Positions 5,294 to 21,776 of a stretch of 22,436 nt of DNA are shown here, piece by piece. The DNA comes from an uncultured Gemmatimonadota bacterium (GTDB taxonomy: Bacteria; Gemmatimonadota; Gemmatimonadetes; Gemmatimonadales; Gemmatimonadaceae), in contig CAMLIT010000071.1 in assembly GCA_946480295.1 (NCBI GenBank), positions 1 through 22,436 on the forward strand, in the 5' to 3' direction. The position numbers were made by a program, and so were the translations under genes. How positions within the stretch are numbered: position 1 is the stretch's first letter; every line of letters starts with the position of its first letter. Under the pieces are notes generated by a model. The model saw nothing but the letters and a program-made list of their open reading frames with translations, ran no database searches and was not told where the DNA came from.

Positions 5294-5352
5294 CGCGCGC
5301 GCGTGCGCCGTCGCTCAGTCCCGCAAGACGGTTCGAGAACAGAAACGGTTCG

Positions 5353-5406
5353 AGGTCGGTCAGTCCCGCCGCGACAGGCCTGTCGTGGCGCGGGACTGAC
5401 CGACCT
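5353..5406. repeat. 54-bp near-perfect inverted repeat
   Basis: The 17-base arm AGGTCGGTCAGTCCCGC (5353-5369) is perfectly complementary to 5390-5406. The interior contains the 14-base palindrome CGACAGGCCTGTCG (5372-5385), so the whole element folds into one long hairpin with a small bulge. The 230-base gap 5294-5523 holds six copies of GCGGGAC or its complement (5318, 5363, 5390, 5435, 5472, 5485) and two copies of ACGGTTCGAG. No T-run follows, so it is not a classical terminator. I see no gene in this gap. Confidence 0.8.
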
Positions 5407-5510
5407 TCACGCGTCCGGACAGAGAGGCGTCAGGGCGGGACTCCCGCACATGCCGCCAGAGGGGCGTGAGCGCGGGACGTCGGCGCGGGACCCTCTGACC
5501 ACACCAGGCG

Positions 5511-14590: not shown

Positions 14591-14804
14591 GCCGTCGGCG
14601 GCGCGCGCGACAGATCTCGCGGAGTGCAGATCCGTTGGGAGCCTTCCAAAGCAGACACAGCGCTTCTGTGAGTGTTATCACCGCCGCCGCTCGGTCGTCG
14701 TTGCCAGAGTGCGATCGTCGCGCGGGACGCGCCGGCGGCGAGAGCGCACGAGAGCTGGCGATCCTGCGGGCGCGGATGCGACGCGCGTCGCGGGGGAGAA
14801 TCAC
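14591..14804 (+). other. Gap between the HD-GYP and GGDEF genes
   Basis: This 214-base stretch shows no gene, terminator or clear riboswitch. CAGATCT and CAGATCC at about 14610-14630 are a short imperfect repeat, and TTATCA near 14676 could be a -10 element for the GGDEF gene. A purine-rich ribosome site (GGGGGAGA, about 14791-14799) lies just before ATG 14805. The frame is open upstream to GTG 14709, but that extension is Arg-rich and has no domain, so it is not counted as coding. Confidence 0.4.
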
Positions 14805-15755
14805 ATGATCCAGGCTGCACCACTCGACCTCGCCCCCGGGGGGATTCGCGTCGCGATCGGCGACCAGGGCATCGACGGCGCCGCGGCCGAGCTGCGCCAG
14901 GTCCTGGCGGGCCAGACGCTCGTCACCCTCCTGCCGAACGACGTCCTGCGCGCCGACTCGTTTGGCACCGCCGAGCCGCCGCACATCGTCATCGTCACCT
15001 GGGGCGGGACGGCCGATCTCGGCGCCACGATCAGCCTCGCGCGCCGCGACGCACCGGATGCCGCCGTCGTCGTGATCGTTCCCTGGTACGACGAGGCGGT
15101 CTTCCTCGGGGCCATCCGGCTCGGCGCGGAGGACTGCCTCACCGCCTCGCAGATCGACGGTCCGGGGCTCATGCGCACGCTGCTGCTCGCCGTCGAGCGC
15201 CACCGGCTCACCTCGACCCTGCGGGCGGTCGCGGTCACCGACGAGCTCACGGGGTTGTACAACCGGCGCGGCTACATCTACCGCGCGGCATCGCTCCTCA
15301 AGGCGGCGAGCCCGAAGGAGATCTGGCAGATCTTCTTCGACATCGACGACATGAAGGAGATCAACGACGGCTACGGGCACTGGGCCGGCGATCGCGCGCT
15401 GATCGAGGTGGCCGGCGTGCTCCGCGCCGCGTTCCGCGCGACCGACGTCGTCGCGCGGGTCGGCGGCGACGAGTTCGCGGTGCTCGCCATCGCGCCCGCG
15501 GACACCGTGGTGCCGAACGGGTGGGCGGCGCGCTGGCACGAGCCGCTCGCGGCCCTCGCCGAGCGGCGCGACATGCCGTTGGCGGTGAGCGTCGGCGTCG
15601 CGCAGCCCGACGAGAACGGGCACATGACCCCTGAAGACCTCCTCACCCGGGCCGACGCGACGATGTACGCGGCGAAGCGCCTGCGGAAGAAGCTGGCGAA
15701 GGCTCCGTCGGGGCTGGCGAACGGCGGGATCGCCATCTCGCGCGAGACGCGCTGA
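14805..15755 (+). CDS. Diguanylate cyclase with degenerate receiver domain
   Basis: A 316-aa GGDEF protein that should make cyclic di-GMP from two GTP. Residues about 10-135 have receiver-like alternation (HIVIVTW at 60-66, and IRLGAEDCLTASQID resembling the last receiver strand), but the phospho-acceptor Asp is replaced (VTW), so this is a pseudo-receiver that cannot be phosphorylated normally. The catalytic domain begins with TDELTGLYNRRGY (145-157), contains FFDIDDMKEINDGYGHWAGD (177-196) and the active loop RVGGDEF (218-224). RATD (211-214) five residues before the loop is a good inhibitory I-site, so product feedback is likely. Start chosen for the GGGGGAGA site. Confidence 0.95.
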   Translation: MIQAAPLDLAPGGIRVAIGDQGIDGAAAELRQVLAGQTLVTLLPNDVLRADSFGTAEPPHIVIVTWGGTADLGATISLARRDAPDAAVVVIVPWYDEAVFLGAIRLGAEDCLTASQIDGPGLMRTLLLAVERHRLTSTLRAVAVTDELTGLYNRRGYIYRAASLLKAASPKEIWQIFFDIDDMKEINDGYGHWAGDRALIEVAGVLRAAFRATDVVARVGGDEFAVLAIAPADTVVPNGWAARWHEPLAALAERRDMPLAVSVGVAQPDENGHMTPEDLLTRADATMYAAKRLRKKLAKAPSGLANGGIAISRETR

Positions 15756-15757
15756 GG

Positions 15758-15785
15758 GGGACGAAGAACGAGGGACGAGGGAAAA
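15758..15785 (+). repeat. GGGACGA heptamer array after the GGDEF stop
   Basis: Four consecutive heptamers GGGACGA, AGAACGA, GGGACGA and GGGAAAA begin three bases after the TGA stop. The same 7-base period occurs after the kup stop and, on the other strand, after the namZ stop. Inverse copies CGTCCC are at 15829-15834 and 15843-15847, on the far side of the hairpin 15788-15819. Confidence 0.7.
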
Positions 15786-15787
15786 AC

Positions 15788-15819
15788 GATGCGGGTGGGG
15801 CTGACGCCCCACCCGCATC
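15788..15819. terminator. Perfect 14-bp hairpin, possible bidirectional terminator
   Basis: GATGCGGGTGGGGC (15788-15801) pairs perfectly with 15806-15819 around the loop TGAC. On the plus strand only CCCC follows, but on the minus strand the hairpin is followed by GTTTTTC (the complement of GAAAAAC 15781-15787), a T5 tract as in an intrinsic terminator. No minus-strand gene lies upstream of it, so its direction is unclear. It may still stop transcription of the GGDEF gene. Confidence 0.6.
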
Positions 15820-15926
15820 TCCCCAGTGCGTCCCGGACCTCTCGTCCCGTCCTCCCTGCCCTCACCCGCGGCCGCGACGCCGTCCCGATCGAGGTCCCCT
15901 TTCCACTCCAACCCCACACCACTCGT

Positions 15927-15940
15927 CAGTACCGGTACTG
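15927..15940. promoter_or_regulatory. 14-bp perfect palindrome upstream of padR-like gene
   Basis: CAGTACCGGTACTG is a full palindrome and GTACCGG recurs at 15951-15957. It lies 131 bases before the padR-like start, in the 315-base gap 15756-16070, which also contains the heptamer array, the 14-bp hairpin and the operator-like repeats. It may bind a dimeric regulator; no gene is seen in the gap. Confidence 0.35.
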
Positions 15941-16003
15941 CGAACCTCGGGTACCGGCAAAGGCAATCGGTGTGCCCCATGGCGTCGGAGCGGACCTCTT
16001 GCG

Positions 16004-16057
16004 ACGATATATCTTGCGTTACATCGTTGGCGGCCACGATATATCACAGACATATCG
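16004..16057 (+). promoter_or_regulatory. Probable PadR operator and promoter
   Basis: ACGATATATC occurs twice (16004-16013 and 16036-16045), exactly 32 bases apart or about three helical turns, and a partial copy ACATATCG lies at 16050-16056. GATATATC is itself a palindrome, as expected for a homodimeric winged-helix protein. The second copy overlaps a TATATC -10-like box about 25 bases before ATG 16071. PadR proteins commonly repress their own gene, so this fits autoregulation. The sites form an AT-rich island in a GC-rich background. Confidence 0.65.
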
Positions 16058-16070
16058 CATGGAGGTCGTC

Positions 16071-16661
16071 ATGTTCGACGGGTTCTTCGCCGAGTTCGGG
16101 GCCGGGCCATGCGGGGCTCGCCGCGGTCGCTCCGGCTTCGAGGCGTTCATGGGGGACTTCTGGGGCGGCCACCGCGGCCGCTTCCGGGGACGGGGTGGCC
16201 GCATGTTCGAGCAGGGGGACCTCCGCTACGTCATCCTCCGGCTGCTGGAGGAGAAGCCCCGCCACGGCTACGACATCATCAAGGAGCTCGAGGAGCGCTC
16301 CGGCGGTGCCTACTCGCCGAGCCCGGGGACGGTCTATCCCACCCTCACCCTCCTCGAGGACCAGGGCTTCGCCCGCGCCCGCGAGGAAGAGGGCGGGAAG
16401 AAGATCTACGAGATCACGGACGAGGGCCGGAAGCACCTGGCGGAGCACAGCTCGACCGTGGACGACATCTTCGGCCGGATCTCGCGCTTCGTCGAGAACT
16501 TCGTCGACACGCCGATGATGGAGGTGAACCAGGCGTTCGGCGGGCTCGGGCGCACGACGTACCGCACGGCCTCCGCGCACGTGCAGGACAGGGAGCGGCT
16601 GGCGCGCATCAAGGAGATCCTCGACCGCGCGGCGCGCGAGATCGAGGAGCTCGGCAGGTGA
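16071..16661 (+). CDS. PadR-family transcriptional regulator
   Basis: A 196-aa DNA-binding protein. Residues 47-125 form the PadR winged helix: FEQGDLRYVILRLLEEKPRHGYDIIKELEE as the first helices (46-75), SPSPGTVYPTLTLLEDQGF (82-100) as the recognition helix and wing, then KKIYEITDEGRKHLAEH. The C-terminus (130-196) is a helical dimerisation part. The N-terminal 45 residues are Gly/Arg rich and probably disordered. ATG 16071 was chosen because GGAGG at 16061-16065 precedes it; the in-frame ATG 16059 overlaps that site. It is monocistronic, flanked by its operator-like sites and a terminator. No target transporter is adjacent, so its regulon is unknown. Confidence 0.93.
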   Translation: MFDGFFAEFGAGPCGARRGRSGFEAFMGDFWGGHRGRFRGRGGRMFEQGDLRYVILRLLEEKPRHGYDIIKELEERSGGAYSPSPGTVYPTLTLLEDQGFARAREEEGGKKIYEITDEGRKHLAEHSSTVDDIFGRISRFVENFVDTPMMEVNQAFGGLGRTTYRTASAHVQDRERLARIKEILDRAAREIEELGR

Positions 16662-16724
16662 GCGGCGGGAAAATGCACCGGCGGGCGCCGCTTTAACGCC
16701 GGGTCCAGCAGGGCTAGATTGGAG

Positions 16725-16762
16725 AATGGGTCGCCGCCGCTGCCGCTGGCGACCCATTTTTT
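16725..16762 (+). terminator. Strong intrinsic terminator after padR-like gene
   Basis: AATGGGTCGCC (16725-16735) pairs perfectly with GGCGACCCATT (16748-16758) around a 12-base loop, and the T6 tract covers 16757-16762. It lies 63 bases after the padR-like stop and before kup. Confidence 0.93.
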
Positions 16763-16841
16763 GCGTAGCTCCCCCTCGCCCAACCCGGCCGAGGCGCCAT
16801 CATAGGATGTACGGCTGCATGGTCCCGCGCAGCACCAATAC

Positions 16842-18899
16842 ATGACCGCAGAGCCTGCTCGACCAGGTGATCCTTCCCGGGCGACGTCTCCCCAGCCGCG
16901 TCTTCCCGAGCCGCCGACAGGCACGAGCGGCTTTCACCCGGCGGCGCGCGCCGACCGGCATCGCGTCGAGGCGCGCCCGACGGGGAAGCGACTCGCGATC
17001 CTCTCCCTCACGGCGCTGGGGATCGTGTATGGCGACATCGGCACCAGCCCGCTGTACGCGATGCGCCAGTGCTTCGACAAGGAGTACGGGCTCCTCGCCA
17101 CGCAGCTCAACGTCTACGGCGTCCTCTCGCTGATCCTCTGGTCGCTGATCCTCGTCGTCAGCGTCAAGTACATCGTCTTCATCATGCGCGCCGACAACCG
17201 GGGCGAGGGAGGGATCCTCGCCCTGCTCGCGCTGCTCCTCCAGCAGGAGCGCCGGGCGGGGGACTCGCGGCGCCGCATGCTCCTGATCTCGATCGGCCTC
17301 TTCGGGGCGGCCCTGCTCTACGGCGACGGCGTGATCACGCCCGCGATCTCGGTCCTCGGCGCCGTCGAGGGCCTCGAGGTGGTGACGCCGCGGCTCGGCG
17401 AGTACACCGTCGTCCTCTCGCTCATCATCCTCTTCGCGCTGTTCATGGTCCAGCGCTTCGGCACGGCGCGGGTGGGCGGAGCCTTCGGGCCGATCATGGC
17501 GCTCTGGTTCGTGGCGATCGGCGCGCTGGGGCTGTACGAGATCGCGCGCGAGCCGCGCATCCTCCTGGCGATGAACCCGTGGCACGCGCTCGTCTTCTTC
17601 CACAAGCACGGGCGCGCCGGCTTCCTCACCCTCGGTGCCGTCGTCCTCGCCGTCACCGGCGCCGAGGCGTTGTACGCCGACATGGGCCATTTCGGGAAGC
17701 GACCCATCCGGCTCGCCTGGTTCGCCCTCGTCCTGCCGGCGCTCCTGCTCAACTATTTCGGCCAGGGCGCCCTGCTGCTGCGGACCCCGGCGGCGGCGCA
17801 GAACCCGTTCTTCATGCTCGCGCCGCGCGCGCTCCTCTGGCCGCTCGTCGTCATCGCCACCCTCGCCGCGATCGTCGCGTCGCAGGCGTTGATCTCCGGC
17901 GCGTTCTCGCTCACCCAGCAGAGCGTGCAGCTCGGCTACTCGCCGCGCGTGTCCATCATCCACACCTCCGCGCGGGAGGCGGGGCAGATCTACATCCCCG
18001 AGATCAACAAGATGTTGATGATCGGCTGCCTCCTGCTCGTCGTCGCCTTCCAGAGCTCCACCAACCTCGGCGCGGCCTACGGGATCGCCGTGACGGGGAC
18101 CATGGCGATCACCACGATCCTCTTCTACGTGGTCGCGCGCTCGCGGTGGAACTGGTCCTTCCGGCACATCGTGCCCCTGACGATCGGCTTCCTCGTCATT
18201 GACCTGGCGTTCTTCTTCGCCAATGTCGTGAAGTTCCTCCACGGCGGCTGGGTCCCGGTGGCGATCGCGTTGGGCGTGTTCACGATCATGAGCACGTGGA
18301 AGAAGGGGCGGTCGATGCTGAACCAGGTGCTGCACTCCGGCGCGCTGCCGCTGGAGCTGTTCCTCGACGACGTCGCGCGCCGCAAGCCGCCGCGCGTCTC
18401 CGGCACCGCGGTGTTCATGACGTCGTCCCCGGAGGGCGTCCCGGTCGTGCTCCTGCACCACCTGAAGCACAACAAGGTGCTGCACGAGCAGGTGATCCTG
18501 ATGTCGATCATCACGCGCGAGATCCCGGAGATCCCGCGGCGGGAGCGCGTCATCGTGCAGAAGCTCGAGCACGGCTTCTGGCGGGTGACGGCGAGCTACG
18601 GCTTCATGCAGACGCCGGACGTCCCCGACGTGCTGGCGGCGGCGCGCGAATCGGGACTGCGGGCGCGCCCGAACGACACGACGTTCTATCTCGGGCGCGA
18701 GCGGGTGATCATCGCCGACGGACACGGCGAGGCCCGCCCCGGCGTCCGCCGCGCCTCCCACGGCCGGCCGAAGATCTCGATGGCCCGCTGGCGGAAGAAG
18801 CTGTTCGTCATCATGTCCCGCAACGCGCGCTCGGCCACGGAGTTCTTCGGGATTCCGCCGAACCGGGTGGTGGAGCTGGGGGCGCAGGTGGAGTTCTAG
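16842..18899 (+). CDS. kup: Low-affinity potassium transporter Kup
   Basis: A 685-aa K+/H+ symporter of the KUP/HAK/KT family in the inner membrane. The family signature GIVYGDIGTSPLYA (60-73) opens the first membrane helix, and about twelve hydrophobic segments run to about residue 480; GEGGILALLAL, DGVITPAISVLGAVEG and ALISGAFSLTQQSVQLGY are well-conserved parts seen directly. A cytoplasmic C-terminal domain follows, ending with SRNARSATEFFGIPPNRVVELGAQVEF, shown here as its typical closing motif (residues about 659-685). The first ~48 residues are a Pro/Arg-rich extension absent from many homologues. No Shine-Dalgarno sequence is visible, so a later start is possible. It has no partner subunits, as expected. 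Confidence 0.95.
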   Translation: MTAEPARPGDPSRATSPQPRLPEPPTGTSGFHPAARADRHRVEARPTGKRLAILSLTALGIVYGDIGTSPLYAMRQCFDKEYGLLATQLNVYGVLSLILWSLILVVSVKYIVFIMRADNRGEGGILALLALLLQQERRAGDSRRRMLLISIGLFGAALLYGDGVITPAISVLGAVEGLEVVTPRLGEYTVVLSLIILFALFMVQRFGTARVGGAFGPIMALWFVAIGALGLYEIAREPRILLAMNPWHALVFFHKHGRAGFLTLGAVVLAVTGAEALYADMGHFGKRPIRLAWFALVLPALLLNYFGQGALLLRTPAAAQNPFFMLAPRALLWPLVVIATLAAIVASQALISGAFSLTQQSVQLGYSPRVSIIHTSAREAGQIYIPEINKMLMIGCLLLVVAFQSSTNLGAAYGIAVTGTMAITTILFYVVARSRWNWSFRHIVPLTIGFLVIDLAFFFANVVKFLHGGWVPVAIALGVFTIMSTWKKGRSMLNQVLHSGALPLELFLDDVARRKPPRVSGTAVFMTSSPEGVPVVLLHHLKHNKVLHEQVILMSIITREIPEIPRRERVIVQKLEHGFWRVTASYGFMQTPDVPDVLAAARESGLRARPNDTTFYLGRERVIIADGHGEARPGVRRASHGRPKISMARWRKKLFVIMSRNARSATEFFGIPPNRVVELGAQVEF

Positions 18900-18900
18900 A

Positions 18901-18929
18901 GGGACGCGGGACGAGGGACGCGGGACGCG
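18901..18929 (+). repeat. GGGACGM heptamer array after the kup stop
   Basis: Four perfect tandem heptamers GGGACGC, GGGACGA, GGGACGC and GGGACGC start one base after the kup TAG stop. Inverse heptamers sit at the other end of the same gap (19328-19347), so the two arrays can pair with each other. Confidence 0.85.
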
Positions 18930-19102
18930 TGCATCCCTGGCTTGGTCCCGGCGTGCGTCGGGATCCGAGATCGGGCGGGGATCACACGAGGGGAACACGG
19001 ATCGGACGGATGCAGGGCGGATCGGCGCGGATCGCTCCGCGTGGCGCGACGGCGCCGCTCGCCCAGCGGCCGGTCCGGGTACCGGCCCCCACACCGCCGC
19101 CC

Positions 19103-19300
19103 GCATTCGCGCCGATTCGCACGATGTCCTTTCAATTCGCGTCGGCTCTTTGGATGCCGGCAGGGCACAGGGGCCAGCGGCGACACGAGAAACCCGGTCC
19201 CCGCCCGCCGGACCCCATCCGTGCCGATCCGACTTTTCCATTGAATCCGTGTCGGCTCCGTTGAGCCGGCCGGGTAGAGGGGCCAGCCGCGGCGAGACGG
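19103..19300. repeat. Two imperfect ~86-bp direct repeats in a non-coding gap
   Basis: A unit starting GCATTCGCGCCGATTCG (19103-19189) is repeated with changes from CCATCCGTGCCGATCCG (19214-19300); both end with a conserved AGGGGCCAGC-type block. Each unit also has an internal repeat (ATTCGCG..CGATTCG; ATCCGTG..CGATCCG). Related words (CACGGATCGG, GGCGGATCGGCGCGG) occur at about 18990-19030. The 446-base gap 18900-19345 between convergent kup and namZ genes has no supportable gene and looks like decayed repeats. Confidence 0.6.
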
Positions 19301-19327
19301 ATCCGGACACGCCGAGCAACCCCACGC

Positions 19328-19347
19328 GTCCCACGTCCCTCGTCCCT
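19328..19347 (-). repeat. GGGACGM heptamer array after the namZ-like stop
   Basis: Read on the minus strand, the TAG stop of the namZ-like gene (19346-19348) runs directly into AGGGACG, AGGGACG and TGGGACG, three tandem heptamers whose first bases overlap the stop codon. It mirrors the array after kup. Confidence 0.8.
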
Positions 19348-20596
19348 AGTACAACCAGTATTTCCTCGCCTCCGCCTCGAACCGCGCCGACTCGGCGCGG
19401 AGCTCCGGTAGGAGCGACGCGACCGTCCCGGACTCCACCGCGCGTCGCAGCCGCGTGCTCCCCGACAGCGACTCGAGCCAGGTCCCGCGCCACTGCCAAT
19501 CGTGCGGGTGGTGCGCGCGGATGGTCTGCAGCATCCAGGCGCCGACCTCGGTCGGGCGCAGCGCGTCGCGGTCGGTCACCGTCAGGTGCAGCATCGGGAT
19601 CGTCTGGCCCCCCCACTTCTGTCCCTTCTCGATCGTGCGCGAGGTCGAGTCGAAGCGCACGCCCGGCAGCCGGAGCGCGTTCAGCTCCGCGGCGATCGCG
19701 CCGGCGTCGGTCAGCCAGGGCGCGCCGACGAGCTGGAAGGGCTGGTCGGTGCCGCGCCCCTCGCTGAGGTTCGTCGCCTCGAAGTAGACCGTGCCCGGAT
19801 AGAGCGCCTCGGCGTCCACCGAGCGGAGGTTCGGCGACGGTCTCACCCACGGGATCCCCGTCTCGTCGTACCACATCGACCGGCGCCAGCCTCGCATCGG
19901 CACGACGGTGTAGTCCACCTTGATCTGCCCCGTGCCGACGAGGTAGCGCAGCAGCTCCCCCGGCGTGAGGCCGTAGCGCATCGCCACCGGGTACTGGCCG
20001 ACGAACGAGCGGTACGCGGGCTCGAGCACGCCGCCCTCGACGATGTCGCCGCGAATCGGGTCCGGGCGGTCGAGCACGATGAACCGCTTTCCCGCCTTCC
20101 CCGCCGCTTCGGCGGCGAGCGCCATCGTCCATTCGTAGGTGTAGATGCGTGCGCCGACGTCCTGGATGTCGTACACGAGGACGTCGATGTTCGCGAGCAT
20201 GGCGGGGGTCGGCGCCCTCGTCGCCCCGTAGAGCGAGTAGATCGGCAGCCCCGTCGCGGAGTCCGTCGACGAGGCGACCGTCTCGCCCGGAGCGGCGGCG
20301 CCGCGCAGCCCGTGCTCCGGACCGAAGAGCGCGACGAGCTTCACCCCCGGCGCGCGATACAGCAGGTCGATCGTGCTCGTGCCGTGCCGGTCACGTCCGC
20401 TCTGGTTCGTGATCAGTCCGACGCGCTTGCCCTGGAGGAGATGGAGCGAGTCCCGGAGCAGCACCTCGATCCCCGGCATCACCGCGCCCGCTGGGACGGT
20501 GACGGCGGTGGCCGCCGCGGGCGCCTGCGAGGCGGATCGGCAGGCGGGGAGGAGAATGGTCAGGGCGAGCGCGGCGCGGCAGGTCGGACGGAGCAT
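19346..20596 (-). CDS. DUF1343/NamZ-like exo-N-acetylmuramidase lipoprotein
   Basis: A 416-aa exported enzyme. The signal MLRPTCRAALALTILLPAC ends at a good lipobox with Cys19. The DUF1343 core is clear: RVGLITNQSGRDRHG (58-72), LFGPEHGLRG (90-99), IDVLVYDIQDVGARIYTYEWTM (seen at about 137-158), VLDRPDPIRGD, PSPNLRS and GTVYFEATNLSEGRGTDQPF. NamZ-type members remove terminal N-acetylmuramic acid from peptidoglycan fragments during cell-wall recycling; not all family members have been tested, so the reaction is inferred. Start uncertain: an in-frame ATG at 20635 would lengthen the signal by 13 residues, and neither start has a Shine-Dalgarno sequence. It follows the PDZ gene by about 118 bases. 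Confidence 0.9.
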   Translation of the reverse strand: MLRPTCRAALALTILLPACRSASQAPAAATAVTVPAGAVMPGIEVLLRDSLHLLQGKRVGLITNQSGRDRHGTSTIDLLYRAPGVKLVALFGPEHGLRGAAAPGETVASSTDSATGLPIYSLYGATRAPTPAMLANIDVLVYDIQDVGARIYTYEWTMALAAEAAGKAGKRFIVLDRPDPIRGDIVEGGVLEPAYRSFVGQYPVAMRYGLTPGELLRYLVGTGQIKVDYTVVPMRGWRRSMWYDETGIPWVRPSPNLRSVDAEALYPGTVYFEATNLSEGRGTDQPFQLVGAPWLTDAGAIAAELNALRLPGVRFDSTSRTIEKGQKWGGQTIPMLHLTVTDRDALRPTEVGAWMLQTIRAHHPHDWQWRGTWLESLSGSTRLRRAVESGTVASLLPELRAESARFEAEARKYWLY

Positions 20597-20714
20597 CAGC
20601 GTGCGGCTGGAGGGAAGAGGGGCACGGAACCGCATGATATCTCGGCGCGGCGCGCGCGTCGAGCCGCCGTGCTCCCCCTTCCGCCCGGTGCGCTGCGCCG
20701 CGCTCGAGCTGCCC

Positions 20715-21776
20715 TCAGTTCCTGGCCCAGCTCCGCAGCGACTCCATCGCGCGACCGGCACCCTCCATCGCGCGGTCGACGCCCTCCATCGCGCGATCGA
20801 GCGAGCGCTGGACCTGGTCGTTGATGGCCGGTCCGTCGAAGTCGAAGCGCATGCGGGGCATCGGCGGCATCGGCGCGACCGGCGGGATCGGCGGCACCGG
20901 CCACGGTCCCATCATGTCGCCCGTCATGAAGAACGAGCCGCCGCGCCGGGGCAGGTCGGAGGCGCGCGCCGCCTTCAGCTTGATCGTGCGATACTGCCCG
21001 TCCTGGTAGACCCGGAGCGTGACGTCGTCACCCGGCTTGAGCTGGCCGATCTCGCGCTGCAGCCGCCGCACCTTGGCGCTGCCGACCATCTCGTCGCCGG
21101 CATCGGCGTTCGAGACGCGGACGTCGACGCCGTTCACCGAGGCGATGCGGCTGCCCTCCTCGAGCCCGGCCTTCGCCGCCGGCCCGGAGTCGTTCACCGA
21201 GAAGACGAAGACGCCGAGGGTGTCGCGTCGGCTCCCCGTCGCACCGATGCCGATGCCGAGCGTCGCCCGGTTCTCGTCGTCGAAGCGCGCCATGCGGACG
21301 TTGCTCGCCGTGCGGAATCGCTCCTCGGGGTAGAGCGAGTCGGCCGCGACGGTCTTCACGCGCACGGTGCGCGTGCGCCCCGCCGAGTAGACGCGGAGCT
21401 CGACGTCGTCTCCGGGCTTCACCTTCTGCAGCTCGCGCTCGAGCCGTCGCTGCATGATGCCGCGCATCTCGGCGTCGCCGGTGTCGCCTGGCGAGAGCCG
21501 GAGGCTCGTGCCACCGACTGCCTGCAGGCGGTCGCCCTCCTCGAGCCCCGCCTTCTCGGCGGGGCTGTTCGGTGTGATGGCGGTCACGATCAGGCCGAGG
21601 GTGTCTCGCGCCCGCACGCCGGCCGACGTCGTCACGCCGATGACGGCGCGATTCGCGTCCTCGGCGCGCACCGTGACGATGCGCCGCTCGATCTTCGGGC
21701 GAGCGTCGGGGGTCTGGGCCAGCGCCGGGGCGGCCACGAGCGCGAGCGCCGCCGGCAGGTGGAGCATCCGTGTCAT
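20715..21776 (-). CDS. Periplasmic tandem-PDZ protein without protease domain
   Basis: A 353-aa exported protein with signal MTRMLHLPAALALVAAPALAQ (1-21). Two PDZ repeats occupy about 44-147 and 171-274. Each has the ligand-loop region (RDTLGLIVTAI; RDTLGVFVFSV), the helix pattern SPAEKAGLEEGDRL or GPAAKAGLEEGSRI, a charged helical insert, and a closing KPGDDVELRVYSAGRTR or KPGDDVTLRVYQDGQYR strand. No protease domain is present, so it is a binding or scaffolding protein. Residues 290-314 are Pro/Met rich, and the tail (about 326-347) has the 7-residue repeat DRAMEGV/DRAMEGA/GRAMES. The start follows GAGG. It precedes the namZ-like gene on the same strand. Confidence 0.88.
   Translation of the reverse strand: MTRMLHLPAALALVAAPALAQTPDARPKIERRIVTVRAEDANRAVIGVTTSAGVRARDTLGLIVTAITPNSPAEKAGLEEGDRLQAVGGTSLRLSPGDTGDAEMRGIMQRRLERELQKVKPGDDVELRVYSAGRTRTVRVKTVAADSLYPEERFRTASNVRMARFDDENRATLGIGIGATGSRRDTLGVFVFSVNDSGPAAKAGLEEGSRIASVNGVDVRVSNADAGDEMVGSAKVRRLQREIGQLKPGDDVTLRVYQDGQYRTIKLKAARASDLPRRGGSFFMTGDMMGPWPVPPIPPVAPMPPMPRMRFDFDGPAINDQVQRSLDRAMEGVDRAMEGAGRAMESLRSWARN

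Follow-up and report, generated by a model that had tools for sequence, protein, structure and literature searches.

Tandem heptamer arrays at stop codons in a Gemmatimonadota contig: probable arms of dispersed short-repeat elements

The STRR of heterocystous cyanobacteria are tandem heptanucleotides dispersed between genes. Rickettsia palindromic elements are palindromic repeats in units of 100-150 nt that lie in frame within conserved protein genes. REP elements are 20-40 nt long and, in the passages of PMC3733652 drawn on here, often form opposite-orientation pairs, mostly downstream of genes with some intragenic copies. The G-rich heptameric repeats described by Rehm et al. (2015; PMC4692102) are GGGAATC in Xanthomonas and GGGGAYT in Nostoc and, in the sections of that paper used here, have no link to any gene class. 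Here, we describe GGGACGN arrays in a 22,436-nt stretch of DNA (the window; 70.6% GC) from an uncultured Gemmatimonadota bacterium (contig CAMLIT010000071.1). The window encodes a GGDEF protein, a PadR-like protein, Kup, and a NamZ-like enzyme, and its arrays lie at the stop codons of the first and the last two of these. The arrays are probably arms of dispersed short-repeat elements that would spread by copying and be filtered by selection, with stop codons among the favoured sites.

The arrays of the window are best read as two convergent inverted pairs, not as three independent elements. Tandem Repeats Finder (TRF) calls period-7 arrays at 15758-15782, 18901-18929, and 19327-19347. Element 1 follows dgc, a diguanylate cyclase gene (14709..15755, plus strand; PF00990, E 2.6e-30) with a TGA stop at 15753-15755. 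Its left arm (15758..15785, plus strand) begins 3 nt past this stop and is made up of four heptads, GGGACGA, AGAACGA, GGGACGA, and GGGAAAA, two of them intact (77% matches in TRF). The right arm (about 15828..15855, minus strand) is inverted and degenerate, with minus-strand GGGACG starts at 15848 and 15834. Between the arms, a hairpin/terminator scan found a perfect 14-bp GC-rich hairpin followed by a minus-strand T run (15788..15819).

Element 2 (18901..19347) is the whole gap between the convergent genes kup and namZ. The K+ transporter gene kup (16842..18899, plus strand; PF02705, E 1.9e-190) ends in TAG at 18897-18899. One nt past this stop, the left arm (18901..18929, plus strand) has four units, GGGACGC, GGGACGA, GGGACGC, and GGGACGC, followed by GTG. 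The namZ-like gene, encoding an exo-beta-N-acetylmuramidase (19346..20761, minus strand; PF07075, PF20732), ends in a minus-strand TAG at 19348-19346. The right arm (19327..19347, minus strand; TRF and word matches) overlaps that stop and has three units, GGGACGA, GGGACGT, and GGGACGC, also followed by GTG. The two arms are mutual inverses across the 446-nt gap, and the predicted RNA fold of the element is closed by both. A second inverted pair, degenerate and CGGAT-based, is nested in the same gap (18986-19036 and 19216-19265) with the polarity of the heptad arms.

The initial annotation had placed three GGGACGM arrays at these stop codons. The stop codons and distances were correct and the tandem heptamers are real, but the dgc array is degenerate and the arrays form two pairs. 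GGGACG.GGGACG occurs 5 times in the window, whereas 300 first-order Markov shuffles give a mean of 0.02 and never more than 1. The single word GGGACG shows no enrichment (33 vs 35.9 expected over the whole window).

Genome-wide figures come from Gemmatimonadota relatives. At least one GGGACGN tandem pair is present in 309 of 395 genomes, many of which have a handful of matches and a similar number for a reversed control pattern. The six richest genomes have 115, 99, 86, 74, 60, and 57 tandem matches, against 0-2 for the reversed pattern; the leaders are G087 (115 vs 2), G367 (99 vs 0), and G101 (86 vs 2). By a count from the table, 14 genomes have at least 15 matches and at least five times the control. 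Several repeat families occur per genome, and units other than GGGACGN include GGATTGC and GAGAAGAC. The reversed pattern is itself a heptad, GGGNGCA, and represents another family of like shape, with G090, G066, G050, and G209 as rich genomes. G090 has 2 GGGACGN matches vs 59 reversed ones, and G066 has 0 vs 28.

Arm structure was read in a sample composed of 400 kb (base 1 to 400,000) of one contig each from G014 and G101 and 20 stretches of G087. The G087 stretches were picked from the tandem-match list, and densities there are therefore biased upward. The commonest size is four units whatever the class, seen in 38 of 69 arrays of GGG heptads, 15 of 30 of other heptads, and 41 of 56 of octads; the detector used misses arrays under ~3.5 units and so cuts the lower side of the distribution. 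When GGGACGN arrays are called from two-unit seeds, four units are found in 8 of 9 arrays in G014, 6 of 9 in G101, and 23 of 36 in G087. The last unit is followed by a 3' cap, with G present in 83% of 100 arrays and T in 55%.

Neighbouring arrays have a fixed polarity. Of 31 cases within 150 nt of each other, 28 are plus-minus, none minus-plus, two minus-minus, and one plus-plus; pairs are convergent and never divergent. Both arms have the same period in all 28 convergent pairs and, by eye, belong to the same family. Unpaired arrays in well-scoring genes are G-rich in the sense strand in 31 cases and in the antisense strand in 15. The idea that one arm is copied from the other was rejected: in 19 of the 28 pairs, an arm from another place in the sample is as good a match as the partner, or better, and the arms are therefore not simply mutual copies. 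Pairing is about as frequent in coding sequence (28/85) as between genes (28/70; P 0.40), which does not support the earlier suggestion of a 3'-end element as such.

Position relative to genes was scored with a home-made gene caller trained on six ORFs of the window, five of them Pfam-confirmed. Its start codons are unreliable, and closeness to start codons was therefore not used. The sample holds 155 period-7 or period-8 arrays, 70 intergenic and 85 inside predicted genes, with an intergenic density 9.3 times higher. Among the 66 intergenic arrays with both neighbours, 50 are nearer to the 5' neighbour. Sense-strand stop adjacency (-16 to +10 nt) is seen in 27 of these 66, vs 9.1 expected, and within -5 to +10 nt in 22 vs 7.0. 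The expectation places arrays uniformly in the same gap on a random strand with equal overlap allowed; none of 20,000 simulations exceeded 20, and P values from this procedure are too small because paired arrays are not independent. GGGACG arrays alone lie within 10 nt of a stop in 11 of 19 cases, vs 2.6 expected. The positional claim therefore holds outside the window. Arrays show no clear preference for gaps between convergent genes, which hold 10 of the 66 and account for 54 of 432 gaps at least 60 nt long. A preference for TAG stops was considered and dropped (10/23 vs 339/1069, P 0.26, not significant).

The kup stop is also occupied in other genomes. Arrays of other sequence or period, with 7-, 8-, or 11-nt units, follow it in 3 of 11 other Gemmatimonadota loci and begin 1, 7, and 13 nt past the stop; random stretches from these loci give 0.11. 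In 2 of 68 other loci, an array lies within 120 nt of the kup stop, vs 0.235 in random stretches, and one further locus is too short. In locus L006 (11997-12170 and 14971-15045), 11-nt AGAGARACAAC repeats lie past the kup stop, with long inverted arrays downstream.

In the relatives, many arrays lie within ORFs that have coding signal on both flanks. Ten such proteins were checked against Pfam. The array is inside the domain match in six, ValS, HisF, MnmE, TldD/PmbA, a BPD_transp_2 permease, and hydantoinase A, and in a linker or tail in four, NAD synthase, DnaX, an E2 acyltransferase, and a GH3 enzyme. G-rich sense arms encode GTGDGGRGTG-like peptides and C-rich arms PVPRPPSPVP-like ones. GGGACGN repeats have no stop codon in any frame, and in-frame copies can therefore survive. 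In ValS, the array occupies the loop that follows GRM, at an eight-residue gap in the alignment to the solved enzyme 1gax. The stop codon is thus a favoured site of a scattered repeat class and not its defining feature, because the class also occurs in frame inside conserved genes of relatives. The initial annotation had proposed a dispersed 3'-end element; dispersal and stop adjacency hold in the relatives, but a 3'-end nature as such is not supported, with 85 of 155 arrays in predicted coding sequence.

Other inserts occur in these genes. An in-frame peptide, PSAAAQRAPAA, recurs in unrelated Gemmatimonadota proteins (L293 and L297, ValS; L227 5362-6792, the E2 of G087). An insert of ~20 nt, CCTMARGGACTYCCTGACGG, stands beside heptads in two genes of four genomes (L271 and L272, mnmE; L294 and L295, ValS). 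G226 also has palindrome-like inserts of 86 and 95 nt (L324 ~13837 and L325 ~2608) that are absent from G156 and represent other REP-like families.

One site can hold different families in related genomes. For mnmE, the DNA of the site was read in 12 of 30 loci. G087, G226, and G122 have two loops with GGGACGN arms, which are partly decayed in G014, and G156 has GGGACGN/GGGGCGN heptads in the left loop only. By eye, the left loop holds other families elsewhere: GGGATGC-type in G167, G026, G125, and G088, GGGAAAC-type in G189, and GGTGCGT in G047. The right loop has octads in several of these genomes, and neither loop is filled in G034. The inter-arm stretch is native and aligned in 12 of 12 genomes. 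A whole mobile hairpin was rejected as the sole mode of spread, since this native sequence is shared with a relative that has neither arm.

ValS was read in 30 of 54 matched genomes. An array is called at one loop in 4 of these 30 genes, each time from a different family: GGGACGN in G087, GGGGAAG-like heptads in G088, GTCGGACG octads in G026, and GGCGGACG octads in G357. G122, G167, and G034 are among the genomes with no array there. G226 and G156, which are 92% identical in ValS, share one identical GGGACGG array and another that differs by one base. Between the same two genomes, a 33-nt octad array is of a different family with its length unchanged. At one site, both arms are GGGACGG in G226 and G156 and GGGAAAC in G122.

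An arm comprises roughly four purine-rich heptads, as in (GGGACGN)4, often with a closing GT, over ~30 nt; in other families it comprises roughly four octads. Same-family arms often face each other with their G-rich 3' ends inward. We infer that new or existing sites receive copies of arms from a genome-wide pool, with selection filtering the outcome. In gene-dense genomes, the least harmful sites would be the bases after stop codons and flexible protein loops. A more specific version is possible though doubtful: mobile ~30-nt arms of four 7- or 8-nt units, with many families per genome, might be written as same-family pairs in strictly convergent polarity around native DNA, either in intergenic stretches or in frame within essential genes, and both arms might later be overwritten by whichever family is active at the time, sometimes with length unchanged.

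Several results weigh against spread by copying with a preference for stops. The source organism is represented by the arrays of its window alone. When no overlap with the gene end is allowed, stops are only weakly preferred (11/66 vs 6.2, P 0.03), and one of the three arrays at other kup stops (L005) has the reverse polarity, being C-rich on the sense strand. No strong motif or conserved tetranucleotide was seen directly upstream of 100 arrays. No insertion event was caught among the genomes compared, which also yielded no target-site duplication, no target motif, and no mobilising gene. A 91-bp GGATTGC pair is present in G226 and absent from G156, but the more distant G122 holds it too, at the same place. 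The empty site in G156 was therefore set aside as proof of insertion, and loss in G156 is likelier.

A mobile-repeat enzyme acting on the arrays, one of the roles first proposed for them, is possible. The Y1-type transposase PF01797 has matches in 9 of 15 array-rich genomes, compared with 5 of 16 empty ones (P 0.16). A Y1/RAYT enzyme, the obvious candidate for the mover, was considered and not favoured, as this association is not significant and G367, with 99 tandem matches, has no PF01797 match.

Among the alternatives to copied arms, the one that survives best, although unlikely, is a functional 3'-end RNA hairpin, acting as a transcription terminator or as a block to 3' exonucleases and kept at stops by selection. 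The excess of sense arrays near stops and the recurrence of different repeats at the kup stop of other species agree with this. The initial annotation had noted inverse copies through which transcript 3' ends could fold, and predicted folds are strong (z -3.87 at dgc; z -4.01 at kup-namZ, from 100 shuffles for kup-namZ), with the kup and namZ "inverse copies" being each other's array. However, pairs are as frequent in coding as in intergenic sequence, and convergent gaps are not clearly enriched. The intrinsic-terminator scan found no sense-strand T run in either element. The only terminator-like match is on the minus strand (15819-15788), a hairpin followed by GTTTTT, and would serve transcripts entering dgc from the right. 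Folding alone also leaves the absence of C-rich-then-G-rich pairs unexplained (0/31). In this sample, pairing does not have its common cause in a 3'-end RNA role. The arrays point to a dispersed, turning-over repeat class with possible local 3'-end use: the paired arms at dgc and kup-namZ could fold transcript 3' ends, and the kup-namZ element may, as a secondary use, be a shared 3'-end hairpin of both convergent genes.

Polymerase slippage, which would leave local simple-sequence DNA tolerated between genes, is improbable. Heptamers are over-represented in many bacteria, as cited in part of PMC4692102, and arrays vary in size by single units. Against slippage, one family occurs at tens of places per genome with a usual size of four units, a 3' cap, and convergent polarity.

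Known heptamer repeats have been tied to G-quadruplexes because they prefer four G tracts, the number needed, and the same proposal was made for the Xanthomonas/Nostoc heptamers. The four-unit size of GGGACGN agrees, as do the kup array and the namZ array with its following GGGG, which fit the G3+N1-7 pattern, and similar repeats formed quadruplexes in vitro in the experiments drawn on from Rehm 2015 (PMC4692102). A quadruplex element is nevertheless highly improbable and was rejected as the sole cause: the dgc arm is outside the pattern, heptads without GGG and octads also peak at four units and pair convergently, and octads occupy the same ValS loop as GGGACGN heptads. Families without GGG and octads share size, polarity, and sites, so the four-unit size needs another cause; quadruplexes are not its shared cause in this sample. 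The many families, the octads, and the in-frame copies together argue against a role confined to G-quadruplexes or to 3' ends.

The Pfam search backs the GGDEF, K_trans, and NamZ assignments of the three host genes. Rfam 15 gave no match in the window at the gathering score. The PadR-like label is a reading of the sequence, as the stretch searched gave no Pfam match. Within the genome collection, the nearest Kup belongs to a Gemmatimonadetes metagenome-assembled genome, with 73% identity over the best segment, which makes Gemmatimonadota the most likely origin of the window. Repeats of the GATATATC type (16001-16063) lie immediately upstream of the PadR-like gene and are possibly its own operator. 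A 21-bp tandem repeat of 2.8 copies (20742-20800; TRF) surrounds the start of the namZ ORF. A palindrome at 5318-5491, GGTCGGTCAGTCCCGC ... GCGGGACTGACCGACC, has several GCGGGAC copies within or near it and is not a heptad array. GCGGGAC, first described as an abundant related word, is close to expectation over the whole window (16 vs 13.4), and the copies at 5318-5491 lie in and around this separate palindrome.

The in-frame copies in valyl-tRNA synthetase, MnmE, and HisF offer a natural record of short repeats entering and changing conserved proteins. Sites that carry different families in related genomes allow a direct test of how the arms spread.

The arrays resemble the STRR in being tandem heptanucleotides; in-frame copies, pair polarity, and octads are not known for the STRR. 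Rickettsia palindromic elements are also in-frame repeats in conserved genes, as are the arrays here in the relatives only, but in the latter the repeats are separate ~30-nt arms that flank native sequence. REP/REPIN elements are single palindromic units with a GTAG or CGTC tag, whereas the arms here are tandem 7- or 8-mers, the stretch between them can be native coding sequence, and no clear link ties a Y1 transposase to the arrays. The TAACTGA direct repeats of marine Beggiatoaceae are likewise dispersed heptamer arrays near gene boundaries, but in the portion of PMC4679880 used here they lie mostly upstream of start codons and their unit carries stop codons.

The closest likeness is to the repeats of Rehm et al. 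As far as the sections of that paper used here go, the two share a 7-nt G-rich unit, a four-unit preference, dispersal, sense-strand placement within 50 nt of a stop, a 5' neighbour closer than the 3' one, and convergent pairs (70 and 75 cases in theirs; PMC4692102). The window itself has a GGG-led tandem 7-nt unit at kup and namZ, and all three arrays lie within 50 nt of a stop in sense. In Xanthomonas, by the figures taken from the same paper, 89-93% of the repeats are intergenic and 7-11% intragenic, whereas 85 of 155 Gemmatimonadota arrays are in predicted ORFs (PMC4692102). The string "gemmatimon" does not occur in its main text, and no account of such Gemmatimonadota repeats was among the matches listed from the open-licence literature. 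Unlike the repeats in those sections of the Rehm paper, Gemmatimonadota arrays come in several families per genome, with family differences at one site. The class matches the Xanthomonas/Nostoc heptamer kind in unit length, unit number, position, and convergent pairing, and differs from it in its many families, octads, heptads without GGG, and in-frame copies.

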